Assembly (NCBI GenBank): GCA_021850805.1
Contig: JAJZKO010000009.1
Location: 1 to 33,497 of the forward strand
Reading direction: 5' to 3'
Length of the DNA stretch: 33,497 nt
From: Microcaldota archaeon
Lineage (GTDB): Archaea; Micrarchaeota; Micrarchaeia; Micrarchaeales; CABMGC01
In this document: piece by piece, positions 1-28,547 of the stretch
Layout of the letters: each line of letters begins with the position of its first letter
Numbering within the stretch: position 1 is the stretch's first letter
Program-made: the position numbers and the translations under genes
Notes under the pieces: generated by a model
The model's input: only the letters and a program-made list of their open reading frames with translations
The model's database searches: none
What the model was told of the DNA's origin: nothing

Positions 1-33
1 CTAATCACGCCAAAGGGAGGAGTCAAATTATAA

Positions 34-106
34 GGGGAGTTCGGCTAGCTTGGTAGGCTTCCAGATTCGGGTTCTGGAGACACGTGTTCAAATCACGTAC
101 TCCCCG
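34..106 (+). tRNA. tRNA-Pro (anticodon CGG)
   Basis: Cloverleaf folded by eye: acceptor GGGGAGT(34-40)/ACTCCCC(99-105); D arm 43-59; anticodon stem CCAGA(61-65)/TCTGG(73-77) with loop TTCGGGT, anticodon CGG at 68-70; T arm ACGTG-TTCAAAT-CACGT (82-98). No encoded CCA; position 106 is G. Confidence 0.93.
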
Positions 107-130
107 TCTTGTTTATGGGGTTATATACAG
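102..130 (+). repeat. Left arm of a 29-bp inverted repeat starting at the last 4 nt of the tRNA-Pro acceptor stem
   Basis: CCCCGTCTTGTTTATGGGGTTATATACAG; its reverse complement occurs at 3344-3372 with one mismatch. Confidence 0.93.
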
Positions 131-168
131 AATGGGAAAATGTCCCCCCTTAAATGATTTTGCACCCC
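117..168 (+). repeat. Copy 1 of a 52-bp perfect direct repeat, about 11 bp downstream of tRNA-Pro
   Basis: GGGGTTATATACAGAATGGGAAAATGTCCCCCCTTAAATGATTTTGCACCCC is identical to 3372-3423. Confidence 0.95.
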
Positions 169-193
169 ATTCTTATGACATAATTATTCCTTC

Positions 194-1303
194 TTATTGT
201 AATATTATAGAAAATACATCAGAGAGAATATCTTTTTGAGTTTTAAGCAAGAAGTCATAATAGGTTTTGGGTTCTTCTTTTTCAAAATTGATATTCAGAA
301 AAGCCACATTTGCCTCTTCGACAATATTAATATTAGAGAGCATAAACCATACCAACTCATTTAATTTACTGTTTTGCTTTTTAAGGTTCTCAACTATCTC
401 TTTCCTCTTCTTATCGAAAAAGGCTTTATATGAAGCTATCAATTTTTCTTTATTCTTTGTTTTTAATTCCAGAAGACCGAACTTTATCCCATCATCAAAC
501 GTTGGCACATTCAGAGTAATATAAGACTTTGAAGCCCCACCCCTTCCAACAAACTGCCCTATATCTTGATAGTTAATATCAGCCAGCTTATTTGTTTCAT
601 TCTTAATATCTGAATGTTGGCCATCCCCTCCGATGAATTCTTTAAACTTATCAAAAGAAAATTGATCTGTTGGGAAAACCATATTTGTGAAATAAGTTAC
701 AAGTTTCTGTTGAACTTTTTCTTCATGTCTACTGAAATAATATTGTAAAAGTCCAAAGATCACCCCTAATACTGTAACAACTGATGCGAATATACTTAGA
801 TTTCCAGTTAAAGTAATAATTTTCAGAGTCCAAGCCCCTCCCAAAAAAGCTAACCATATAAAGAATAATGGGAATAGCATGTAAGAAACGTTAAAGAATA
901 TTGTTCTGCTTGCAGATATTAAGAACATAACCCAATTTTTCTTTATAATCTGTAACCCTTCGCTTATATCCATACCTTCTTTTTTATTGCTTTTACCTTT
1001 TTCTTGTAGGGCATAGATTAAGTATACAATAAACAATATCAGAGCCAATACTATTCCAACATACCAGATGTAGAGACTTAATGTGGTTATGGCTAAGAGA
1101 CTAAGATAGCTTTTCCATCTCGGTATCTCACCAATGATAATAAAAGTAAGAATACCAATTAAGGGGAAAGCCCAAATATTTAATGTTGTAAAGAGTGTAA
1201 AGAAGTAGTATAAAGCAAGATCAGCCAGAATAAAAGATAAACCCCATGCAAAACTAAGGGAATCGTATCCTATCTTTGATTTTATTAATCCAGTTATGTC
1301 CAT
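194..1303 (-). CDS. Multi-spanning membrane protein with cytosolic C-terminal domain, unknown function
   Basis: 369-aa ORF; N-terminal half has several long hydrophobic stretches, C-terminal ~180 aa hydrophilic and Lys-rich. Confidence 0.75.
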   Translation of the reverse strand: MDITGLIKSKIGYDSLSFAWGLSFILADLALYYFFTLFTTLNIWAFPLIGILTFIIIGEIPRWKSYLSLLAITTLSLYIWYVGIVLALILFIVYLIYALQEKGKSNKKEGMDISEGLQIIKKNWVMFLISASRTIFFNVSYMLFPLFFIWLAFLGGAWTLKIITLTGNLSIFASVVTVLGVIFGLLQYYFSRHEEKVQQKLVTYFTNMVFPTDQFSFDKFKEFIGGDGQHSDIKNETNKLADINYQDIGQFVGRGGASKSYITLNVPTFDDGIKFGLLELKTKNKEKLIASYKAFFDKKRKEIVENLKKQNSKLNELVWFMLSNINIVEEANVAFLNINFEKEEPKTYYDFLLKTQKDILSDVFSIILQ

Positions 1304-1362
1304 GTTTTCAGCAATTCATTAGTGTTTTCTTCTTTAATATTATTCGCCTTCCAGCATATTAG

Positions 1363-1992
1363 CCGTTTTTCTTAAAGTACTCTACTTCTGCTAACCTAAA
1401 GATAAGGCAATATGAAGCCTATTCTAACGCAAACAAGAAACGTGGCATAGCAGAGGCTATAGTCAAAGAGAAGGTTAGGCATTCGTTGAATCTACTTAAT
1501 CAGTTATCAGCATATTACCCAGAAATACAGCCCAATGCGTTTAAAGAACGTGTTATAGCTGAAAGTATGCTAACTTATGAGGGGAATATGGCGATTGCTT
1601 ATTGGCATGAAATAGGCAAGGTATTCAACAAGCTATATCCAGAGTTTAGGTTTACGGATAGGAACGGCAGAAGGCATTCATGGAATATGAATGCAAGCGA
1701 TGAAATAAACGCTCTATTGAATTATGGTTATGCCATTCTCGAATCTGAGATCAGAAAGGGCATTAACGCTATAGGGCTTGATTCTTCAATAGGCTTTTTG
1801 CATGAGCTTAAAGATGGCCGATCATCGCTTGTTTATGATTTGCAAGAGCTTGGTAGATGGCTAATCGACCTATCAGTTATACAACTTTTAGAGGAAAAGA
1901 AGCTAAAGAAGTCAGATTTTATTGTAACTGAGAATTACAATATAAGATTAAGAGAAAGTACAGCAAAGGCACTTATAGAGAAGGTAAGGTAA
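1363..1992 (+). pseudogene. cas1: Truncated Cas1 endonuclease/integrase: C-terminal catalytic domain intact, N-terminal beta domain missing
   Basis: Cas1 pattern YEGNMAIAYWHEIGKVF...NASDEINALLNYGYAILE...AIGLDSSIGFLH...SLVYDLQE. The frame is open back to a TAG at 1360-1362 (…SANLKIRQYEAYSNANKKRGIAEAIVKEKVRHS…), but no ATG and no N-terminal domain is present; the track ORF starts at TTG 1486. Confidence 0.85.
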
Positions 1993-2345
1993 AAAGAGCC
2001 AATCGAAGAAGAGCTAAAGAAAAATAAGGAATTTGTTGGTAAGTTGATAGAGTGGGGTACAAAGCAAGAAGAGAAGAAGGAAAGGGTCAATATACTGATT
2101 GATGAATGGCCAATTATTGAGCTTGCAAGAATAGGCTATAAGAGTTCTGGTATCTCTGTTTATCTGCCGAAAAGAGTATCAAAGGCACTCAGACTGGATA
2201 AGGGTACAATAAATCGCTCGTTATTATGGCCGATAGATCTTATAGCATCTTATTAATGAAAGATACAAAGGTTGCAGAGATGCGTAAGCCACTCGTTTTG
2301 GATATGCGTAAGGCTTTAGGAGCTAAGTTAGATAAGTTGCCTTAG
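1993..2345 (+). pseudogene. SpoVT-AbrB-like protein gene disrupted by a frameshift
   Basis: Frame 1 encodes ...GISVYLPKRVSKALRLDKGTINRS; the continuation SLVIMADRSYSILLMKDTKVAEMRKPLVLDMRKALGAKLDKLP* lies in another frame from about 2214 to the stop at 2343-2345. No clear start codon near 1993. Family call from the ISVYLPKRVxxAL pattern only. Confidence 0.5.
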
Positions 2346-2358
2346 AGTCTGGAGAAGG

Positions 2359-3276
2359 TTAAGTTAAATTTTTCTTATAAGATTGCTCTATCAAACTCAT
2401 CAAGTAATCTAAATTATGTTCGTCTTTAACATCTATCTCATAATCTCCATTACCCCAATGCCCTATTTCGGAGACGTCTCTGGTTAGGTGTTGTGGATCG
2501 TTAAGCTCACCTTTTTTAACATTAAGCCAAACTTTTAGTTTACCTTTTGAAAAATATATATCTACAAAATTGGTAGACGCTATAAAGCCAATATAATTCT
2601 TACGAGATCTTATTACTATATTTTCATCTATTGCTAAAATATGCTCTTTTATATATTGATATATACCTTTTAATTCGTTAGAAGTTTTCTCTAAATGGTA
2701 GTCTTCATTATAAAATTTTACTTCCCTACTCACTTTCTGGATCACTGAGCTTTTTAAAACTGGTTCTATTGAGGCAGTTCCCTTTTGCTTCTTAACTTCA
2801 ATCCTATTCAGTACTAAAGAGCCATTTGCGTACTTGTGTATTTCTATTAATTCTATAGGCAGGTCAATATTCAAGGCTCTTACAGAATACTTAGTAAATT
2901 CAGGTGAAATAAAAAGAATTCTTGTAGCAGACCAATCTACATCATCCTTCTTCAAGTCTTTCCCTGTCTGTTCCCTATAAAGTAGAATAAGATCAGCTTT
3001 CTTATCTAATAGTAGATTGAGATATGCATAACCCTGATCAACTACACTGAAATTAGCGGTGTTCTTATATTCGATTATAACAAAGGCATTGTTATTTGAG
3101 TCGAAAGCGACTGTATCCATACGCAGATCTTCAAGAGTATATTGTGGTTTAACCAATTCTAATCCAAATATCTCCTTTAGATTATTATCTATAAGATTTT
3201 GCAGTTCATTCTCATTTCTAAAGGGAATCTCCTTTGTATCCTCTAATTTACCCACGCCTATGTGAAAGACTTGCAT
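2359..3276 (-). CDS. DUF5655-type protein with N-terminal PD-(D/E)XK nuclease-like domain
   Basis: 305-aa ORF, SD-like AAGGAGAG upstream. N-terminal D-TVAFDSNNNAFVIIEYK; C-terminal GFIASTNFVDIYFSKGKLKVWLNVKKG...RDVSEIGHWGNGDYEI...DLDYLMSLIEQSY is typical of DUF5655. Confidence 0.75.
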   Translation of the reverse strand: MQVFHIGVGKLEDTKEIPFRNENELQNLIDNNLKEIFGLELVKPQYTLEDLRMDTVAFDSNNNAFVIIEYKNTANFSVVDQGYAYLNLLLDKKADLILLYREQTGKDLKKDDVDWSATRILFISPEFTKYSVRALNIDLPIELIEIHKYANGSLVLNRIEVKKQKGTASIEPVLKSSVIQKVSREVKFYNEDYHLEKTSNELKGIYQYIKEHILAIDENIVIRSRKNYIGFIASTNFVDIYFSKGKLKVWLNVKKGELNDPQHLTRDVSEIGHWGNGDYEIDVKDEHNLDYLMSLIEQSYKKNLT

Positions 3277-3343
3277 TCTGCTCTCCTTTTATAAAGTATT
3301 ACAGTAAGCCTTTAAATTTGTTTGGAGGGTGCAAAAAGTCGTT

Positions 3344-3372
3344 GCTGTATATAACCCCATAAACGAGACGGG
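3344..3372 (-). repeat. Right arm of the 29-bp inverted repeat
   Basis: CTGTATATAACCCCATAAACGAGACGGGG, reverse complement of 102-130 (28/29). Both ends also carry a subterminal TTTTGCACCC motif (158-167 on +; about 3327-3336 on -). Confidence 0.92.
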
Positions 3373-3423
3373 GGGTTATATACAGAATGGGAAAATGTCC
3401 CCCCTTAAATGATTTTGCACCCC
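3372..3423 (+). repeat. Copy 2 of the 52-bp perfect direct repeat
   Basis: Identical to 117-168 (constant offset 3255); flanking sequence diverges on both sides. Confidence 0.95.
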
Positions 3424-3497
3424 CTCTCAAACCTAAACCAGTCAAATTTCCCGAAAAACAGTTAATTCTATGTATACAAATATTAAGAGAGGTTAAT

Positions 3498-4190
3498 ATG
3501 GGTAAAACTATGAGAAACTTCGGTAATAATCTTGGCCTATTCTTAGCCATACTTGCCTTTTTAGGATTTGGAACCATCTATGTTCTATGGCATTCTATAG
3601 TTGGAGTATTCCAGCCACAACCAATTGCGTACATAACAATAAGTAATTCAACAATTACTGGAAGTTTTAATGCTACTGGAAATGGTACATCCATAGACCA
3701 AATTACATTGTATGGTGAAAATAAAACCCAGTATCACGCTTTAATATCTGGCTCTTCATTCACTGTTACGTTACCAAACAAAAACGCCTCGTATAATGTT
3801 ACTGCAACATGGAATGGAATATATAGTTGGGAAAAAGGAACTGTAGCAAGCACGTCGCCTTTTACATTTAGTACTTCTGACATCTATGCGTCGCAAAGAA
3901 TTATTTTTCAGACACAAGATTCATTTATTATTTCTACAGGGACTGCTTCTACCAAATGGTTTCCGCTTGCATGGGCTTCATCAATAGAGTTTACTCCAAC
4001 AAATGAATCTTTTCAACCAATTACAGCAAATGTAAATTACGGTAGTTATATCGCTAAACTTCCAAACTTTGTAACCTATTCAGTTACAGAGTATTATGCT
4101 GGTGTCCCGAGCGGTAACTGTTCCGAAGGGACTTATCAAGTAAAAGTTACGAATGGCGCTGCTTTCCCTAAAGGGAATTGGACTTGCTAA
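3498..4190 (+). CDS. N-terminally anchored extracellular protein, unknown function
   Basis: ATG at 3498 (MGKTMRNFGNNLG...) preceded by GAGAGGTTA; one N-terminal TM, Ser/Thr/Asn-rich exterior, C-terminal Cys (GNWTC). The track start at 3387 lies inside repeat copy 2 and is unlikely. Confidence 0.7.
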   Translation: MGKTMRNFGNNLGLFLAILAFLGFGTIYVLWHSIVGVFQPQPIAYITISNSTITGSFNATGNGTSIDQITLYGENKTQYHALISGSSFTVTLPNKNASYNVTATWNGIYSWEKGTVASTSPFTFSTSDIYASQRIIFQTQDSFIISTGTASTKWFPLAWASSIEFTPTNESFQPITANVNYGSYIAKLPNFVTYSVTEYYAGVPSGNCSEGTYQVKVTNGAAFPKGNWTC

Positions 4191-4693
4191 CTTAGACTAT
4201 CTTCTATTATTTTCTTCCCATCTTCGTTTATATCATAAATTTTGTAAACGATATTGTTAATATCTCTCTCAATTTTAACGATATTTTCACTTATACTATC
4301 CCGTTTAGTCGCACTTCCATTAATATTCTCATTTAGAGAATTGTACAGGGAGACTAATTTCTTAGCCAGATCAGATAGCTTCGCTTTCTCATTATTAGAG
4401 CAATTCTTTATAGGCAATATCTTTAGTTGCGGCGCTTGGAATTGGAAATATCCACCACCCATTCTTAATCCTGCAAACAATTCAGAGTATACGAAATTCA
4501 TAAGTTTTGAATTAAGAATTGCAGTTAAATATTCCAGATCGTATCCTGCTTGAGGACTATACACACAATTCGTATTTAGAGATGCATATTCACCTTTAAT
4601 ATCAAGAAACCCTTCAGGATTCAATGCAATTTTTGCAAATATTATCTTAGGGGTGTTATACAAAACCTTTCTATTTTCACTGACCTTATCCAT
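4187..4693 (-). pseudogene. C-terminal fragment of an adenine-specific methyltransferase / type IIG restriction enzyme (TaqI-like specificity domain)
   Basis: TPKIIFAKIA...NTNCVYSPQAGYDLEYLTAILNSKLMNFVYSELFAGLRMGGGYFQFQAPQLKILPI resembles the TaqI-like C-terminal specificity domain. No methyltransferase NPPY domain upstream; upstream frame closes at about 4727. Confidence 0.65.
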
Positions 4694-4843
4694 GGCATAA
4701 CCATAAACTTTTAACCCCTTTTCCTTTCTTTATCTTTTTCTTCAACCTGAACAACTGCCTCTTCGATAATCCAATGCATAGCGCCTTCTGTTGTCATGTT
4801 CCTTATAACTTCTGTATCTTTTGCTATGTTTTGTTACCATATC

Positions 4844-5632
4844 TCAACCCCCCTGCAATACCATGCCAGAATTTGTCATGCTAAAATTGATAGAATTGCC
4901 GATATTCCCCGTGATTACAACAACATCCGCATAGAGCGGCACATCGTATCTAGCCGAAAGGCACGTGTAAAAAATAAACGTTCCAGGAGCGTATCCAGTC
5001 TGGTTAAATAACTCCTCGTTAACCATGACTGTTCCAGCTCCAGCTACCGAATAACAAGGCTGTCCACCAAAACTGCCCACCCCGTAATGGTCCGTACTTA
5101 CGTTGCCAATGCTTGTCAAATTAAATAGGTAACCAAGGACTGTTGTGTAAGCAGAGTATGGATAAGAAGAATTCTTGCATATCGACGTCGACGTACCGTT
5201 CTGATTGTCAAAGTTGTATATCACACACCCACGCCCATTTCCTGAGGTCTGGTTCAGATACGTCGTCGCTTCAAGGTCTTCAACATTTGACATATTCATT
5301 AATTTAAGGTCAGACCACGACTGGCTGCCATTCTTGCTATAGAGGAAGCTAAACTGCGGATCGGTTTTATTTATTACTATGGATCCTGAATATGAAAGGT
5401 TTGCAACGGCTGCCGAATTGATTTTCTGCGCCATTATCGAGATAAGAGTGCTTGAATTGAGGTTTTTTGCTGTAATTATTGCATAAGGCAGCGATCCATA
5501 CGTGAAGAAAAGGTATGCGCCTGCGATGATGATTAGTGCGAACAGTGCCAATATAATCCACTTGACCGAACCCCTCCTCTTCTTCCTGACATTCGCATCT
5601 TTTCTAGCCATATAACCGTACAGAGTGTCCAA
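4844..5632 (-). CDS. Membrane-anchored extracellular protein, unknown function
   Basis: 262-aa ORF; likely true start at the internal MARKDANVRKKRRG; basic N-terminus, one TM, many N-x-S/T sequons. Confidence 0.75.
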   Translation of the reverse strand: MDTLYGYMARKDANVRKKRRGSVKWIILALFALIIIAGAYLFFTYGSLPYAIITAKNLNSSTLISIMAQKINSAAVANLSYSGSIVINKTDPQFSFLYSKNGSQSWSDLKLMNMSNVEDLEATTYLNQTSGNGRGCVIYNFDNQNGTSTSICKNSSYPYSAYTTVLGYLFNLTSIGNVSTDHYGVGSFGGQPCYSVAGAGTVMVNEELFNQTGYAPGTFIFYTCLSARYDVPLYADVVVITGNIGNSINFSMTNSGMVLQGG

Positions 5633-5759
5633 TAAGAGTTTATAACCATTGCGATAGTGCGTTTACTTCTGGATAGTGCGACGTTTCGCGCGCAGAATCA
5701 ATAATGGCATTCTCCTCAGAGCCATAAATTATATTAATGAGTAAGAAATACACTGGGTA

Positions 5760-7013
5760 ATGGCAATTTCTATAAGGGAACTTAAGGATCATCAAAGAGC
5801 CCGCCCTGATCCTATAATTACAGAATTTCCTAAGCCCGAGCAGAAGATCCACAAAAAGAGCCTCCTTACAAAGCTTAAGCGCGGAATTGCTGTAGCTGCA
5901 GTGTCTTCAATAGCACTAATATCTCCATCCACCTCCACCCTTGCTCCGCGAGGTGACGTCCCATTCGAGTATACACAGGAAATAACATCCCCTCCGCTAT
6001 CAAAGGCTGAGACTGGCATAGCCGTGCTGCAGCAAAGCTATGATCCGTCATCCGGGCTGTGGAATGGCGCAAGCTGGTGGCAGGATGCAAGGATATTCAA
6101 CACAATAGTAACATATGCAGCATCTATCGGTAGCAGCAGATATGACTGGGAGATACGCAACACATTCAACATAAATTCCTGGCCAGGTTTCGCGGATAAT
6201 TACAGCGACGATAACGGGTGGTGGTCTATTGCCTGGGCCAACGCATATTCCCTTACGGGCAAAGAAGCATATCTGCAAGAGTCGGAAGCGCTATTCAGGC
6301 AGATGGAAAGCAATTGGACGGGATCGTGCGGCGGCGGCCTTGTATGGAGCCGCGGCACAGGGTACAAGAATGCGATATCAAACGAACTCTTCCTTAAGGA
6401 TGCAAGTATCCTCTACATAAAAACAGGCAGCACATATTATCTGGACTGGGCCGATCGAGAATACAAATGGCTTATGGGAAGCGGGATGATAAACAGAAAC
6501 GGGCTGGTAAATGACGGGCTTACTGCCTCATGCAGGAACAACGGCGGAACGGAGTGGACATATAACCAAGGCGAACTCATAGGCGCGCTTTCATATTTCT
6601 ATGTTGCTGCAGGAAACCAGAAGGCGCTTCAAGTTGCCGAATCAGTGGCAGATTCAAGCATGGAAAACCTTACTTACAAGGGCATCCTCTCAGAGCCAGC
6701 ATGCACCCCTGCAAGTACCTGCCATTACGGCCAGGGACTCTTCAAAGGAGCATACATAGACAATCTCTACTACCTATTCTCGATAACCGGAAAAGAAAGA
6801 TACGCCGGGTTTATACTCAGAAATGCAAGATCCATATGGAGCAGGGACAGAAATGGCAATTATCAGTTCGGGTTCTCCTGGAATGGGAGAAATACATACT
6901 ACTCAATCAGCACAGAGGATTCAGGCACAGATGCTGAGATTGCAGCAAAGGAAACATCCGGGCAAGTTCTTACCACAGCATCCAATCCTGGAATTCTTGG
7001 ACAAAAAAATTAA
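5760..7013 (+). CDS. Secreted/anchored GH76-like (alpha-1,6-mannanase family) glycoside hydrolase
   Basis: DDNGWWSIAWANAYSLTGKEAYLQESEALFRQMESNWTGSCGGGLVW...NAISNELFLKDASILY...GMINRNGLVNDGL...WTYNQGELIGALSYFYVAAG matches the GH76 pattern including the DD pair; hydrophobic segment near residues 42-57. Confidence 0.85.
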   Translation: MAISIRELKDHQRARPDPIITEFPKPEQKIHKKSLLTKLKRGIAVAAVSSIALISPSTSTLAPRGDVPFEYTQEITSPPLSKAETGIAVLQQSYDPSSGLWNGASWWQDARIFNTIVTYAASIGSSRYDWEIRNTFNINSWPGFADNYSDDNGWWSIAWANAYSLTGKEAYLQESEALFRQMESNWTGSCGGGLVWSRGTGYKNAISNELFLKDASILYIKTGSTYYLDWADREYKWLMGSGMINRNGLVNDGLTASCRNNGGTEWTYNQGELIGALSYFYVAAGNQKALQVAESVADSSMENLTYKGILSEPACTPASTCHYGQGLFKGAYIDNLYYLFSITGKERYAGFILRNARSIWSRDRNGNYQFGFSWNGRNTYYSISTEDSGTDAEIAAKETSGQVLTTASNPGILGQKN

Positions 7014-21980: not shown

Positions 21981-24900
21981 TCAGCAGCTGTTCTCTATGG
22001 TTATGTTCTGCCCGTATGCGCCCGCCACCTGTGCATTTGGCACTCCAACCCCGAAATAGATGTCATTACTGGCTCCGGCTCCTACATCTATAAGAGTGTT
22101 GTAAGGAACCGAAGTGAGAGGGTTAGCAGAAGAGTAACGCGTTCCCGATACGGCATCCCATACGGTATTGCTAACTCCGAAGCTGTTGCTGCCGTATATC
22201 CAGTTGGAGCCGAATACATAAATGTAAGAAGGTGCAGTACCTGTGTTTGTATCTATTATTCCCTTATTTGTTGCTTCAACCCCACCAGGGACAAGAGTGC
22301 CGAAATTAATCTTTGTGCTATTCAGCGATATGGTGCATGTAGCTGAGGAAACAACAGGCGCAGCGCCGAAAGATGTTTCCGGCATCACCCCATTAGGAGG
22401 ATAGGCCCTTACTCTTACCCACTGGAAGAGCGTGGAGAAGGAACCTACTGCATCAGGCCCTTCCACCTCTACCCCTACAGGTTCGCTTGAGATGCTAGGT
22501 GCAGGAGACGTGCTGAAGATGGCCTTATGGTAATCAAAGAACTGCCTCTCGTTTCCCGTGCCCAGCCAGGCGCTGCCCATTATGCCATTTACCGTCTCAG
22601 AGCTTATGTTGCTGGCAACATATCTGGTGCTATTGGTAAGTATATAATATGGCCTCTGGTTCACGCTGAGGTTCTCTATATTATATGCATATCCTGTATT
22701 AACTCCATCGACAAGACCCGAGACCGCACCGGTTCCTATAAACGGTCCAAGCTCGTCAGCAATTATGTTCATATCAGTTGACTTTGCATAAATCTCTACC
22801 ACTGACGGGTTTGAGATTGTAGTTAGAGACTGGACATATGTATAGTTTAATTTCCCTGTTGCCGTCGGCGCCTCTGTGAGAGTAAGCCCATTGTCCACAG
22901 AAAGTGATCCATAAGAACCTATGCCTTCTTTCCATTTGCTCGTATTTAGCGCCGTGCCTGTAAAATTATCATAAAGCGCAAAGACATTCGCCCCGTTGTC
23001 ATATTCTCCGTAGGAGGGGCTGAGCTGCGGCGCCTCGCCCGTAAGATGCGCATTCAGGAGATTGTTCGAAGATGAGATGACGTTGCCCGCAAAACCCATA
23101 AAGAGTTCCAGCGAGCCCCGTGCAGGTACCCCGTTCTTAATCTTAAGCCAGTAGACTATGTCATTGCTCGTATAGAGATTGGAACCCTGCATCATGTTCG
23201 ATGAATTTCCTTCCATCCAGCTTGGTATTACGGATCCGCTTGCGTTGAAAAATTCCACATTGTTTAAGTTGCTAGTTGCGTAGAGCGAGTAATTAAGGCT
23301 GTTTACTACAAGCATCTGCTGGAACGGCGCAGGCGTGGAAGAATTCTGGAGATTGCAGAGCGTCAACGGGAAGTATTTGACTATGCCTGAAGGAACGGAA
23401 GAGGGTGCGGAGACGGTGCTTCTGCATGAGAAGACAGAGGCGAATGTGGTATTCCCTGCCCTGAGCGTTCCGCTCTGCACCTTTGCAGACTGCAGGATAG
23501 TACTCTCGGATACGTTAGGTATCGAGAACTGGTAAGATCCAGGCGCAGTAGAGAATACTATGTTGTTGGGCACCACCGCGCTCTCCGTGACCCCATTATA
23601 TGTTACGCTCCACGTCTCCCCATTATCAAAGAGCCCAAATTCCCTGAAGCTTGTAAGAGGCGAGGATGATACTACAGTGCCGAAGCGTGCGCGAGGCATT
23701 ACCCCATTAGGGGGATACGCCCTTACCCTCACCCACTGGAATGTCGCATACCAGGGGTTTGTAGAGCCTCCGCTTACTCCTGTTGCCTCTACCCCTATCG
23801 GCATAGGCTGAAGTTTGTTGCCTGTATTGTCCCATGTGGTGACCCTGCTGTAGTTATAGTACATCGCTTCACTGCCTGTAGCCAGCCAAACGCCGCCCAG
23901 TATTCCGTTGAGCGAGAAGATAGGCGCAGGATACCTGTCCATGTATGTTGTATCGTTCGCAAGGAACCATGTAGGTGCGAATGTATATGCGGGATTGGCC
24001 GAGGTATTCGTCAGAAACAGATCCCAGTAAGCGTATCCTGAGCTAATGCCATCCCCGGCGCCGCTGTATCCCACTCCGGTAAAAGGCGCAGCTCCCTGAT
24101 AGTTGGTAGTCATTATGTTCGAATTCACATCAGTCTCTACAATCTCCGGATTCGAGAAACTTGTCAGTGACTGCACAAAAGTAATGTAATTATCCTTCTC
24201 CCCTATTGTCAGTCCATCATTCACACTGTAGCTCCCTCCAGTTCCTGTAGTCTCAGACCACTTGCTGGTATTGAGTGCCGTGCCCCGGAAGTCGCTGTAG
24301 AAGTTGAAGACCCTGTAGCCGCTGTCATATTCCGCGTAAGTGGGAGAGAGCTGCGGCGCCTCTCCTATATTATTCCCGTTGAAAAGGTTAGTCGCCTTAG
24401 ACGCCCATCCCATGAAGACTGTTGAGTTTGCATTAGAAGGTATGCTGGCCGAGAGCCTGAGCCAGTAAATGGTGTGGTAAGAGCTGTTTGTATCGTTGGT
24501 CTCAAGCCACGAGGGCACTACAGTCCCATTCCCGTAAAAGAACTCCACATTCTGAAGGTTCCCTGCCTCATAAGCAGAGTAGTTTGAGCTGTTTACTACA
24601 AGCATCTGCTGGAACGGCGCAGGCGTTGCAATAGTTTGGTTGTCTGTGAAATTTATCGGAACATATGCCGATATGCCTGAAGGCACAACCACCGCACTCT
24701 TCGTGAAAGTCACGTTTGTCGTATTGCCTGCTACGAGATACCCGCTGCTCACTGACGGTGTGTAAAGGAATCCCCCTATGCTCCGATCGGGTATGCTGAA
24801 AAGATAATTTCCAGGCGCCGTGGTGGTTCCTACTCCGCCAGGTGAGATCCCATTAAATATCTCAGAATCGTAGGTCACGCTCCATTTGTATCCACTGGGA

Positions 24901-27900
24901 AGGCCTACCTCATTGAATATGCTCTTCACACTTGGTGCTTCTACTGCAGCAAGCTCTGAAGCCGCGCTACCAGCAGGTCCTGGAACTGCAGTCGCAAACC
25001 CGGAACTTGTGAAATTTATTGAGTATGTTCCCGCGCTCTGGTTTAGGCACTCTACAGCCCAGGCACCTGCGAATCCAAAAGAACCTGAATAATTCGAATT
25101 AGTTATAGAATTGCATCTGTTGTTAGGCAGCTTTACTGGCAAAAAAGTGGAATTGCCTGTCGATGCAACTATATATACATCGCTGCCAGAGGTTGCAACA
25201 GTATACGTAAGCACGGAGTTGTAAGAGCCTGCCGCATTTCCGTTTCCGGTATAAAATGTAAGGCTGCTAGGGCTTGCGTTTATCGCAATTCCGCTGATTG
25301 CGAATCCCTGCGCTGCGGAAGGCGAGCTTGCATTGCCGACATTATATGTAGAATATCCCACACTTGAATTATCATAATAGTCCGTTGTTGTACGCCCCTT
25401 AGTAGTACTTCCGGAAACTACCGAGTCTGAAGCCTCAACAGTCCAGTTTACGCCCATGCCTGCGCTTCTATTGTTCCCTCCGTCACCTGCCGCATAGATG
25501 TATGTTTTGTACCCTGTAGGGAGCCTAAGTGAGATGCTGCCCTGTTCGACAGAGCTGTTCGTGCTATTGGCATATGAAATATAAGACTCCGTGCCTCCGT
25601 TTAAAGTGTATAACTTCACGAGACTGCTCAAAGCGGGATAAGCCCGCAACCTCACCCACTGAACTTCGTAAGTGCTGTTCTGGGCAAATCCCCCTATATT
25701 CAATGGGAATGCAGGTATTCCCGAATTCGAGGTTATAAATCCAGTATAATTCACCGTTGCATTAACCGTAGCAGTATTGTTCGCCGCAACCCTTATGGAA
25801 TAAAGCCGGTATCCGCCAAACGCCAATCCCGTAACCCTATGGATAGTAACAGAGTTCCACGTCAAAATGCCATATACTTCGGGGTTAAGCCCCGTCCCCC
25901 CAATGACGCTGAGATTTGTATTTCCGTTAGATGGATTGGGGGATGTTGACATGTAACCAAATGTGCTCCATTGGCAGCATGGTTGTGACGGGGAGAAATT
26001 CCCGAAGAAGTCAAGTACTCCCTGCCCAAGCTTCTTAACTGAGTAAATCTCAGGCGTGTTGCCAATCGCACCTGTCTTGCCGCTCTTTACAACCGTAAGC
26101 CCGTTGTCCACAAGGATCTTGCCGTATCCTGTATTTACCGTATTGTTTACCCACTTGCTGGTATTGAGTGCCGTGCCCCTGAAATCGCTGTAGAAGTTGA
26201 AGACATTATAACCGTCATCGTATTCCGCATAGGACTTGCTTAGCGTTGGGTTCTCGCCTGTAGTTATGTTATTCAATAGATTGGTGCCCCTATAAGCGAA
26301 GCCCATGTATACCGTTTCTTTGCTATTCGCAGGAAGCCCATTCGGAAGCTTTATCCAGTATGTGGTATTCCACGATTTGTTGAGATTTCCGGATTCAGAA
26401 TAATTGTATATATAATTTCCATTCTCAAGCCTTCCTGATTCCAGCCAGGAATTTATCACCGTGCCGTTCCTGTAGAAAAACATGACATTCTGCATATTTG
26501 GGGCTTCCCAAGGGGTGTAGTTCAATCCGTTCACAGCCACCCGCTGCTGGAACGGCGCAGGCATTGCGTTATTGTTTAAGTTCACTATCTCTATCGGCAC
26601 ATAGTACACTATCGGTACAGGGACCACGAAAATGTTCGGATCCTCCGCGCTATAATTCTGGCTTGAAGATGAGCTTAGGTATACGGAGATATTGTCCCCT
26701 ACCGGTATGTTGGTGTAATTTAGGTATTCGGAGAGATTGCCTGTCGTGTTGGAGCCCTGCCCGGCAATACGGGAGCCTTCAAAAGCACTCCAGGAATAGC
26801 CAAGCTTATTTCCTGCTTCAATAGTCGAGTATAAGTGCAGGCTTATGCTGTAGGTACGCTGCAGAGGGTTTACCGGGATGTAAATCTTCCCTGTCGCATT
26901 AGGCGCCCCGAATCCCGCGCTATCTACATTTACCATAAGATGCGGAATTCCTTTAGCAACATCTACCTGCTCCATAATCTTTCTCCCAGTTCCTGGATTC
27001 ATTACAGTAATGTTATATGTTCCAGGCGTGAGGCATGTCTGCGAACCTCCAGAACAGACGCCATATTCCACAGTTCCATTCCCAGTTGCGACCATCGCAC
27101 CGTCAATCTTTATAATTACGCCCGCATTCCGGTTGGATGCCCTTGCCCTTATAGCGAATACCTCCCCATACGCGGCATACGCCGGCAGCTGTACGCTTAA
27201 TGATGGGACGGCGCTTGCATTGCCTATGTACTCATGCGGCATTACTCCGTCAGGAGGGTAGGCTCTGGCGCGAATCATGGCAAAATATGCAGGGTTTGTA
27301 AGACCTGCCCAGGTTACTATACCTGCATACTTGTCTTGCGTTCCTATCAATGAACTGCTCGTTGTGCAGTTTGCAACAATGGCACCTCCCTCCTCAGGGG
27401 TGCGATTGTAAATGTAAGAAGCCAGGTCAGTGCCATTCACTATTCCCTCTATCCAATACCAGCCTGGCTGCCTGCTTCCAGTGTTGCAGAGCGCAGTGTT
27501 GGCTCCTGAAGAAAGATAAGCCACTATCGCCTCGTCCCCCATCCACCCGTCCCCTATTATATAATTGCTTAGCGATGAATCTGAGCTCCCTCTAACAGAG
27601 AAGAGCGCATTCAGGTTGGTTCCTATATTGCCCCAGCCTTCAACGACAAATGAGTTGTAACCCAGTGGCACATTACTCCATGCTACTGTCTCAGGCGACT
27701 TTGATGTAGACCCATTTCCGGTTATCTGTATAACGTTGGAAGGAAACCCGTAAGGGCCAGTCATGGATATGCTGCTTAGCATGCCTCCATTTGCAAGCGA
27801 GAGGTTTCCCGTGCCGCTGCCATTGTAATACATGCTGAATACCGATGCTCCGTTGTCATACCTCCCATATACCTGCGAAAGCTGCGGCGCCTCGCCAGTG

Positions 27901-28547
27901 CCCTGCCCATTCATAAGAACTTCGCTGAGATTTGCAAAGCCCATGTATACAGTCAGGTTAGAATCTGCAGCAATACCTGAACTTATGTTCAGCCAGTATA
28001 CGGTATCCGTTGATGTATTCAGTCTGCTTGCATTCTGCGGGTCATTGAGTCTTATATTCGAGGCGCTTCCTTCGAGCCATGAGTTTATCACGGTGCCATT
28101 ATAATAAAAAAATTCTATATTACTCAGGTTCCCTGCCTCCAGATAAGCATACTTTGAGCTATTTACGTAAATCTCCTGCTGGAATGGCGCCTCAGTGCTT
28201 ATGTTCTGTGCATTGTCCAGCCTTATCGGTATATAATATTCCACAGCAGGCGGAAAGCTAGCTGCAGCCTGTGCGCCTGAATTGCTATAGTATACCGTGC
28301 CGTTTGAATATCCTGGAGATACCTTTATCGATGAGCTGTAGTCCTTCCCATTCGGCGCAGTAACTCCGTAAGCGGTGTACGCGCCTGCAGAAGTATAATT
28401 ATTGCTGGTATTCTGGAGAGAATTGGACGTTCCAGAGAAGTAATATACGCTACCATGCCAATCATGCCTGACATTCACCGCGCCAAGCAAGAAAGCGGCT
28501 CCAAAGGTAATCACAAGAAGCATTACCAAAGCGGTATACCTTTCCAT
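21981..28547 (-). CDS. Giant secreted surface protein (2188 aa) with four DUF2341 modules
   Basis: N-terminal TM/signal; four modules start YYIPIRLDN, YYVPIEIVN, AYVPINFTD and KYFPLTLCN, each followed by APFQQ...NVEFFYxNGTVxxSWLE...VYMGFA...GEAPQLSxxYxEYDxGxxVF and mostly ending VRVRAYPPNGVMP; linker with NEVGLPSGYKWSVTY. Confidence 0.92.
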   Translation of the reverse strand: MERYTALVMLLVITFGAAFLLGAVNVRHDWHGSVYYFSGTSNSLQNTSNNYTSAGAYTAYGVTAPNGKDYSSSIKVSPGYSNGTVYYSNSGAQAAASFPPAVEYYIPIRLDNAQNISTEAPFQQEIYVNSSKYAYLEAGNLSNIEFFYYNGTVINSWLEGSASNIRLNDPQNASRLNTSTDTVYWLNISSGIAADSNLTVYMGFANLSEVLMNGQGTGEAPQLSQVYGRYDNGASVFSMYYNGSGTGNLSLANGGMLSSISMTGPYGFPSNVIQITGNGSTSKSPETVAWSNVPLGYNSFVVEGWGNIGTNLNALFSVRGSSDSSLSNYIIGDGWMGDEAIVAYLSSGANTALCNTGSRQPGWYWIEGIVNGTDLASYIYNRTPEEGGAIVANCTTSSSLIGTQDKYAGIVTWAGLTNPAYFAMIRARAYPPDGVMPHEYIGNASAVPSLSVQLPAYAAYGEVFAIRARASNRNAGVIIKIDGAMVATGNGTVEYGVCSGGSQTCLTPGTYNITVMNPGTGRKIMEQVDVAKGIPHLMVNVDSAGFGAPNATGKIYIPVNPLQRTYSISLHLYSTIEAGNKLGYSWSAFEGSRIAGQGSNTTGNLSEYLNYTNIPVGDNISVYLSSSSSQNYSAEDPNIFVVPVPIVYYVPIEIVNLNNNAMPAPFQQRVAVNGLNYTPWEAPNMQNVMFFYRNGTVINSWLESGRLENGNYIYNYSESGNLNKSWNTTYWIKLPNGLPANSKETVYMGFAYRGTNLLNNITTGENPTLSKSYAEYDDGYNVFNFYSDFRGTALNTSKWVNNTVNTGYGKILVDNGLTVVKSGKTGAIGNTPEIYSVKKLGQGVLDFFGNFSPSQPCCQWSTFGYMSTSPNPSNGNTNLSVIGGTGLNPEVYGILTWNSVTIHRVTGLAFGGYRLYSIRVAANNTATVNATVNYTGFITSNSGIPAFPLNIGGFAQNSTYEVQWVRLRAYPALSSLVKLYTLNGGTESYISYANSTNSSVEQGSISLRLPTGYKTYIYAAGDGGNNRSAGMGVNWTVEASDSVVSGSTTKGRTTTDYYDNSSVGYSTYNVGNASSPSAAQGFAISGIAINASPSSLTFYTGNGNAAGSYNSVLTYTVATSGSDVYIVASTGNSTFLPVKLPNNRCNSITNSNYSGSFGFAGAWAVECLNQSAGTYSINFTSSGFATAVPGPAGSAASELAAVEAPSVKSIFNEVGLPSGYKWSVTYDSEIFNGISPGGVGTTTAPGNYLFSIPDRSIGGFLYTPSVSSGYLVAGNTTNVTFTKSAVVVPSGISAYVPINFTDNQTIATPAPFQQMLVVNSSNYSAYEAGNLQNVEFFYGNGTVVPSWLETNDTNSSYHTIYWLRLSASIPSNANSTVFMGWASKATNLFNGNNIGEAPQLSPTYAEYDSGYRVFNFYSDFRGTALNTSKWSETTGTGGSYSVNDGLTIGEKDNYITFVQSLTSFSNPEIVETDVNSNIMTTNYQGAAPFTGVGYSGAGDGISSGYAYWDLFLTNTSANPAYTFAPTWFLANDTTYMDRYPAPIFSLNGILGGVWLATGSEAMYYNYSRVTTWDNTGNKLQPMPIGVEATGVSGGSTNPWYATFQWVRVRAYPPNGVMPRARFGTVVSSSPLTSFREFGLFDNGETWSVTYNGVTESAVVPNNIVFSTAPGSYQFSIPNVSESTILQSAKVQSGTLRAGNTTFASVFSCRSTVSAPSSVPSGIVKYFPLTLCNLQNSSTPAPFQQMLVVNSLNYSLYATSNLNNVEFFNASGSVIPSWMEGNSSNMMQGSNLYTSNDIVYWLKIKNGVPARGSLELFMGFAGNVISSSNNLLNAHLTGEAPQLSPSYGEYDNGANVFALYDNFTGTALNTSKWKEGIGSYGSLSVDNGLTLTEAPTATGKLNYTYVQSLTTISNPSVVEIYAKSTDMNIIADELGPFIGTGAVSGLVDGVNTGYAYNIENLSVNQRPYYILTNSTRYVASNISSETVNGIMGSAWLGTGNERQFFDYHKAIFSTSPAPSISSEPVGVEVEGPDAVGSFSTLFQWVRVRAYPPNGVMPETSFGAAPVVSSATCTISLNSTKINFGTLVPGGVEATNKGIIDTNTGTAPSYIYVFGSNWIYGSNSFGVSNTVWDAVSGTRYSSANPLTSVPYNTLIDVGAGASNDIYFGVGVPNAQVAGAYGQNITIENSC

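Follow-up and report, generated by a model that had tools for sequence, protein, structure and literature searches.

The DNA analysed here (hereafter the window) was the whole of contig C24 (33,497 bp; JAJZKO010000009.1) of a Microcaldota archaeon (assembly GCA_021850805.1), from a source genome of 882 kb that is 84% complete. The best-named relatives are Candidatus Micrarchaeota metagenome-assembled genomes (MAGs). Position 1 lies just 5' of a tRNA-Pro(CGG) gene, and the GC content is 30-38% up to approximately 5000 and close to 50% beyond 5000-6000. The low-GC segment from 103 to approximately 4840 was read as a decayed array of two adjacent elements derived from casposons, inserted at the 3' end of this tRNA-Pro gene. 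The probability of this reading was put at about 0.85, and the casposon origin of the ends themselves is near certain. The framework of the array, with its terminal inverted repeats (TIRs) and target copies, was delimited as follows:

34-106 (+): tRNA-Pro (CGG), the insertion target, called by ARAGORN
88-94 (+): leader motif TCAAATC, within the T-arm and occupying -15 to -9 as counted from the target copy; located in the sequence
103-116 (+): target copy 1, CCCGTCTTGTTTAT, 14 bp, overlapping the tRNA 3' end; placed by its position relative to GGGGTTATATA and TCAAATC, its length being that of the exact duplications in relatives
117-3358 (+): element 1, 3242 bp, casposon-derived and non-autonomous, with TIRs at both ends and a GC content of 30-38%
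117-168 (+): left TIR of element 1 (sequence X), GGGGTTATATACAG...TTTTGCACCCC
3327-3358 (-): right TIR of element 1 (sequence Y), GGGGTTATATACAGCAACGACTTTTTGCACCC
3359-3372 (-): target copy 2, in reverse complement (ATAAACGAGACGGG, the reverse complement of CCCGTCTCGTTTAT), 13/14 identical to copy 1; its last G is common with the next TIR
3372-3423 (+): left TIR of element 2, 52/52 identical to 117-168
117-3371 (+): the 3255-bp unit between the 52-bp copies, i.e. element 1 and one target copy
4808-4843 (no strand): right boundary zone of the array; the sister-strain contig C11 is alignable from approximately 4843

A repeat search of the window returned an inverted pair (99-130 and 3345-3376, 32 nt, 94% identity) and a direct pair (117-168 and 3372-3423, 52/52 identical), and these were the only inverted and the only direct 20-mer repeats within 1-4850. 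Both had been reported in an earlier sequence-only reading; they are real, and its coordinates were correct to within a base or two. The inverted repeat comprises two things joined: the first 14 bp of the TIR (GGGGTTATATACAG) and a target copy (13-14 bp) in reverse complement. The TIRs of the window elements begin with GGGGTTATATA, and between the TCAAATC-bearing tRNA-Pro site and the left end there is exactly one target copy of 14 bp. The subterminal sequence that the sequence-only reading saw at the ends was recovered as TTTTGCACCC near all three of them, 41 nt inward at both left ends and 22 nt inward at the right end. Element 1 thus carries TIRs with 14 perfectly matched bp and a subterminal TTTTGCACCC at either end, of the same family as those of complete casposons (below). 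The 14-mer that follows the right end, once inverted, matches the tRNA-side 14-mer at 13/14 positions (P ~1.6e-7 for one given position); because of this match, and because the same ends recur in relatives, chance was excluded. A genome-wide search for other copies of the ends, as had been proposed, placed the 63-bp end sequence at this single locus in its own genome, except for the terminal part of contig C3, which is an assembly overlap.

The position of the array on its tRNA is that of a casposon. The casposase of Aciduliprofundum boonei requires TCAAATC at -15 to -9 and CC at +1/+2 of its 14-bp target (PMC6614799). In the window, TCAAATC occupies that same interval in the tRNA 3' end, and CCCGTCTTGTTTAT, the target copy from 103, has both the spacing to this motif and the CC at +1/+2 that the A. 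boonei enzyme needs. The parallel with the A. boonei casposon at tRNA-Pro, raised in the sequence-only reading, holds down to the spacing of the motifs (PMC6614799).

Complete elements with the same ends were found in relatives. The GGGGTTATATA...TTTTGCACCC pattern was present in 11 of the 79 family genomes, with no control match, and the anatomy at those loci was consistent: tRNA, 14 bp, GGGGTTATATA end. Complete casposons with perfect 14-bp direct duplications, all at tRNA-Glu, were delimited in G006 (8505 bp), G043 (10,738 bp) and YP3.bin43 (10,308 bp), and perfect 14-bp direct duplications also bracket two short non-autonomous elements, in G001 (4151 bp) and G031 (899 bp). The three complete elements carry a full-length casposase, a PolB of 880-892 amino acids and an HNH protein inside their TIRs (blastp across the casposons; HNH by PHROGs); the G043 element also carries an Eco57I-type methyltransferase. 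The best PDB match of the G043 casposase was the Methanosarcina mazei casposase 6opm (5.7e-80), over residues 2-400 and including the C-terminal helix-turn-helix (HTH; 6opm 19-412), and the next-best Cas1 matched at 1.2e-27. The PolB proteins of the relatives had no match by Pfam, PHROGs, NCBIfam or phmmer. A fold model built with nine sequences (mean predicted local distance difference test score, pLDDT, 72.5) matched archaeal PolB by Foldseek at 2e-12 over the whole chain, with low TM-scores of 0.3-0.4, and a Pol alpha match at 3.6e-4 was obtained by profile; by modelled fold and by profile, the protein of 880-892 amino acids is thus predicted to be a PolB.

With a casposase bearing a C-terminal HTH, PolB and HNH proteins, and TIRs flanked by an exact 14-bp duplication at a tRNA, G006, G043 and YP3.bin43 each show the features of family 2. 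In gene content they resemble AciBoo-C1 of A. boonei, MetMaz-C1 of M. mazei and NitNCS1-C1 of Nitrosotalea. Shared with these family 2 casposons are the insertion at tRNA 3' ends, the 14-bp target copy, TCAAATC at -15 to -9 and, at tRNA-Pro, CC at +1/+2 (PMC6614799, PMC6563490). Unlike them, the elements described here have a DPANN host, most ends in the order stand without a partner end, and tRNA-Glu is used as often as tRNA-Pro; the window element differs further by its casposase relic, the lack of PolB and a reversed second target copy. In the literature searched (openly licensed papers only), no casposon was described in Micrarchaeota or DPANN.

The targeting rule was surveyed with the pattern TTCAAATC-N{20,26}-GGGGTTATATA. 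Across the 79 family genomes it occurred at 52 sites, with N exactly 22 at 50 in the fetched loci; across the order it occurred at 109 sites, spread over 75 of the 165 genomes and 35 of the 54 genera, with 0 control matches, and the spacing by coordinates was TTCAAATC-N22-GGGGTTATATA at 100 of the 109 sites although 20-26 was allowed. The family targets were tRNA-Glu (22), tRNA-Pro (19), tRNA-Ile (3) and tRNA-Arg (2), with 6 further sites lacking a complete tRNA. Only the leader motif is general, and not CC, because +1/+2 is AG at tRNA-Glu. The 14-mer varies freely in sequence and is fixed in length. The order harbours a casposon family that inserts 22 bp downstream of TTCAAATC, duplicates 14 bp and has TIRs starting with GGGGTTATATA, and the window ends belong to it. 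No tRNA-linked end pattern was found in IMG/VR.

Most of the tRNA-linked left ends that were examined had no detectable partner end within 7-15 kb, some contigs stopping first; where the contig does not stop, such ends are probably remnants. The completeness of the MAGs was 52-97%, so that a missing casposase in any one genome is weak evidence. At the far end of decay, an 18-bp palindrome, GGGGTTATATATAACCCC, stands between two target copies at L067 1951-1968 (G043 C22), L138 (G105 C17, beside tRNA-Glu, the target duplication with one mismatch) and L144 (G034 C5); G043 and G034, of the same genus, have one such scar in common. GGGGTTATATATGACCCC, in L135 and L142, was listed with these scars. 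The 18-bp sequence can be read as a casposon cut down to its two outermost ends, possibly by a deletion between the TATATATA common to both TIRs. Solo TIRs of M. mazei were reportedly described as isolated casposon ends by Krupovic in 2016. The remnants in G043 and G105 are of the same kind, and the scar in Micrarchaeota would be explained by that deletion between TATATATA copies.

The genes and remaining stretches within the array were annotated as follows:

194-1303 (-): cargo open reading frame (ORF) of element 1, 369 amino acids, predicted membrane protein, no clear relatives
1375-1989 (+): casposase (Cas1) relic of element 1, located by tblastn with the full casposases of relatives
2359-3276 (-): cargo ORF of element 1, 305 amino acids, DUF5655 with a NucS_C-like region (Pfam)
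3498-4190 (+): ORF of element 2, 230 amino acids, secreted or membrane-like, no family
4187-4693 (-): type II/IIG methyltransferase relic, TaqI_C specificity domain only (Pfam 8.7e-11; PADLOC REase_MTase_IIG 4.2e-15)
4721-4808 (no strand): stretch 82% identical to the interior of the G047 element at the same tRNA-Pro (L022 4168-4257)

From the inverted arms and a Cas1, the sequence-only reading had suggested a casposon-like transposon. Its origin is borne out by the relatives, in which the same ends enclose a full family 2 casposase, PolB, HNH and 14-bp duplications; the element itself is not an intact casposon. Cas1 is present as a fragment: the ORF at 1486-1992 matched the C-terminal half of the Cas1 profile only (PF01867, 2.6e-35, profile 148-281 of 283), and the relic as a whole corresponds to residues 83-287 of the full-length G018 casposase (79.5% identity), with the N-terminal and C-terminal (HTH) parts gone. 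No PolB or HNH match was obtained in window 1-6000 by tblastn with the element proteins of relatives. Because the Cas1 is a relic, element 1 was classed as casposon-derived and not autonomous; it would be unable to move by itself now, and may once have been mobilised by a casposase of its own or of another copy. Along its entire length, the DUF5655 cargo protein matched PDC-S18, a candidate defence family of PADLOC (E=2.3e-112 over 1-300); its candidate defence role is a prediction of that library.

The right edge of the array was set between 4808 and 4843, because C11 is alignable only from 4843 and because 4721-4808 resembles the interior of the G047 element. That element (L022 2960-6018, G047 C4) is 3059 bp long and has both TIRs at the same tRNA-Pro; its right target duplication is absent (5/14), another sign of rearrangement after insertion. 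The end of G047 C4 (L022 6024-6120) and the end of G000 C2 (L021 5942-6038) are identical over 97 bp, the two genomes being filed in different genera, and G047 C4 may continue the sister strain, having been placed in the wrong bin. Outside the array, window 21981-28547 (-) is an internally repetitive ORF (period ~1.3-1.9 kb) of 2188 residues; its product is probably a large protein of the cell surface.

What sets the window apart is the junction between its two elements. The target duplication of ~14 bp that had been proposed as a check is there, but turned around: ATAAACGAGACGGG, which follows the right TIR (ending at 3358), matches the target copy at 2/14 positions directly and at 13/14 in reverse complement. 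It was the only reversed target copy among the examined sites. A second candidate, in G043 contig C17, was rejected: the contig lacks an anchor to its tRNA, and on the other strand its arrangement is an ordinary one. In tandem casposons of Methanosarcina and of Nitrosopumilus adriaticus NF5, adjacent elements share one target copy between them (PMC6563490, PMC9939771), and the same holds in G004, G031 and YP3.bin43, where tandem junctions carry a target copy in the ordinary orientation; the window junction, in contrast, is reversed relative to the target. Viewed on the minus strand, its right TIR, target copy and left TIR form an ordinary tandem junction, one G short, and deletion of 117-3371 restores an ordinary junction of tRNA, target copy and TIR. 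The window-type junction pattern was absent from IMG/VR. The suggestion of a second, nested insertion stands as to the second element but not as to nesting: the two elements lie next to each other, and what stands between the 52-bp copies has turned around as one piece, target copy included.

A reversed target copy does not arise by ordinary tandem insertion. The junction is ordinary from the other strand; the array segment that carries it is therefore reversed relative to the tRNA. The inter-element junction appears to have been flipped after insertion, and a secondary rearrangement at this array is likely, with two routes that could have produced it, the choice between them not being firm. 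By inversion, the end points would fall inside the two elements, or else in outer TIRs that are identical. The starting order would have been tRNA, target copy, an element 2' with X as both TIRs, target copy, and an element 1' with Y as its left TIR, and the segment with the inner junction (right TIR, target, left TIR) would have turned around, for example by recombination between identical X ends. Ordinary tandem arrays do exist in relatives, one element can have TIRs that match perfectly for 75 bp or more, as in G001, in which case the 52-bp repeat would represent the flipped ends of one element, and the inner junction becomes ordinary when inverted back. This route also predicts, at the right edge, a right TIR in reverse complement (rc(X), i.e. 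rc(GGGGTTATATACAGAATGGGAAAATG...)) followed by a direct target copy CCCGTCTTGTTTAT; neither was found in 3423-4850, though element 2 is decayed. N-terminal Cas1 remnants, expected if the inversion had passed through Cas1, were not found elsewhere in 1-6000. The 369-residue cargo ORF, searched for a pre-inversion arrangement, had no Pfam or PHROG match and gave only weak matches in the family. An inversion was judged plausible, at somewhat less than even odds. By the other route, which was entertained more tentatively, element 1 would have been excised as a circle of 3255 bp with one target copy and integrated by a crossover at the 52-bp TIR shared with a resident element 2; such a crossover would leave direct repeats of 52 bp together with element 1 and a target copy in reverse, so that one step predicts every junction observed. 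In M. mazei, one target site remains after excision, and the authors proposed a circle that carries a copy of the target; a casposon's own target copy was found reverse-complemented beside its TIR at a new site among in vivo translocation products (tLEU2), as in the window (PMC10359463). The tLEU2 product was a polymerase chain reaction (PCR) product from a population, whereas the window arrangement is fixed in the genome, was read from an assembled contig and sits at a target of the original kind. Against the circle, the M. mazei authors did not detect it and cautioned of a possible artefact (PMC10359463), and no intact casposase was found in this 84%-complete genome. The fullest form of this proposal, that the window is a genomic record of a casposon that left in circular form, with one target copy, and came back in reverse via a shared TIR, in a family whose ends were seeded across Micrarchaeales (~45% of genomes), mostly as casposase-less passengers and some with defence-type cargo, must be called doubtful.

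Several points weigh against a rearranged casposon array at this locus: the array is open on the right, neither a right TIR nor an outer target copy of element 2 being present in 3423-6000; the end points of an inversion are not identifiable; 52 bp is short for homologous recombination (~800 bp is cited for M. mazei; PMC10359463); no empty site was recovered in a close relative; and the contig starts in the tRNA repeat region of a two-strain bin. This last point favours an assembly chimera, in which two strains or array states were joined and the flipped junction exists in no cell. C2 and C3, two contigs that terminate at this tRNA, share 85% identity over 6 kb, and two strains are therefore present in the bin. 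The overlap of C3 with C24 measures exactly 121 bp and runs to GGGGT, which is five bases inside the TIR; an overlap of this kind marks a branching assembly graph. These contig ends suggest that different cells carry different elements at this tRNA site. The repeats within 1-4850 (52 bp direct, ~32 bp inverted) are, however, well under the 121-bp overlap, and the junction is a well-formed casposon junction, one G short, which makes a chimera improbable. The att duplication of a tyrosine-recombinase island, raised in the sequence-only reading, has in its favour that tRNA 3' ends are common att sites and that a few relatives have longer tRNA 3' repeats (84 bp identical, 8.1 kb apart, in G057 contig C21). 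The direct repeat of the window, however, is the TIR of the second element and is common to complete casposons; it starts 10 nt past the tRNA, contains no tRNA sequence and lies beside a reversed target copy. With no integrase among the annotated neighbours and no tRNA 3' sequence in both repeats, an att origin was given up as extremely unlikely. Scarcely better placed is the view that the repeats are a native tRNA 3' signal, terminator or promoter, rather than element ends. GGGGTTATATA does follow tRNA genes in 75 of 165 genomes, mostly without a partner end, but in six independent cases the 14-mer is duplicated beyond a partner end (exactly or with one mismatch) at distances of 18 bp to 10.7 kb, and the 14-mer is free to vary while its length is constant; this view was rejected on the exact 14-bp duplications.

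Two kinds of observation on contigs and tRNA repeats were made alongside. The contigs of G000 (C2, C3, C11) break exactly at both array edges (window 1-121 and 4843), which suggests that array content differs between cells. The 84-bp direct repeat of G057 C21 (L175, 3493-3576 and 11593-11676) consists of the tRNA-Glu 3' part, a target copy and a casposon end, and is possibly an att-like duplication by another kind of island on the same tRNA; in G018 C4, a tRNA-Pro 3' fragment lies 0.76 kb past the tRNA.

Casposons are transposons driven by Cas1 and have been proposed as the source of the integrase of clustered regularly interspaced short palindromic repeats (CRISPR) and as ancestors of CRISPR immunity; to our knowledge, few examples are known. 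The decayed array of the window belongs to a family with complete family 2 casposons and many passenger ends across one DPANN order, in which the leader-target rule of A. boonei is preserved at more than 100 sites. These sites provide a natural data set for target choice, for growth in tandem, which resembles that of CRISPR arrays (leader, repeat, insert), and for decay. The flipped copy is relevant to the question of whether casposons are excised in circular form and retain a copy of the target. If circle re-entry did take place in the window, it would represent a route hinted at in M. mazei and never captured.

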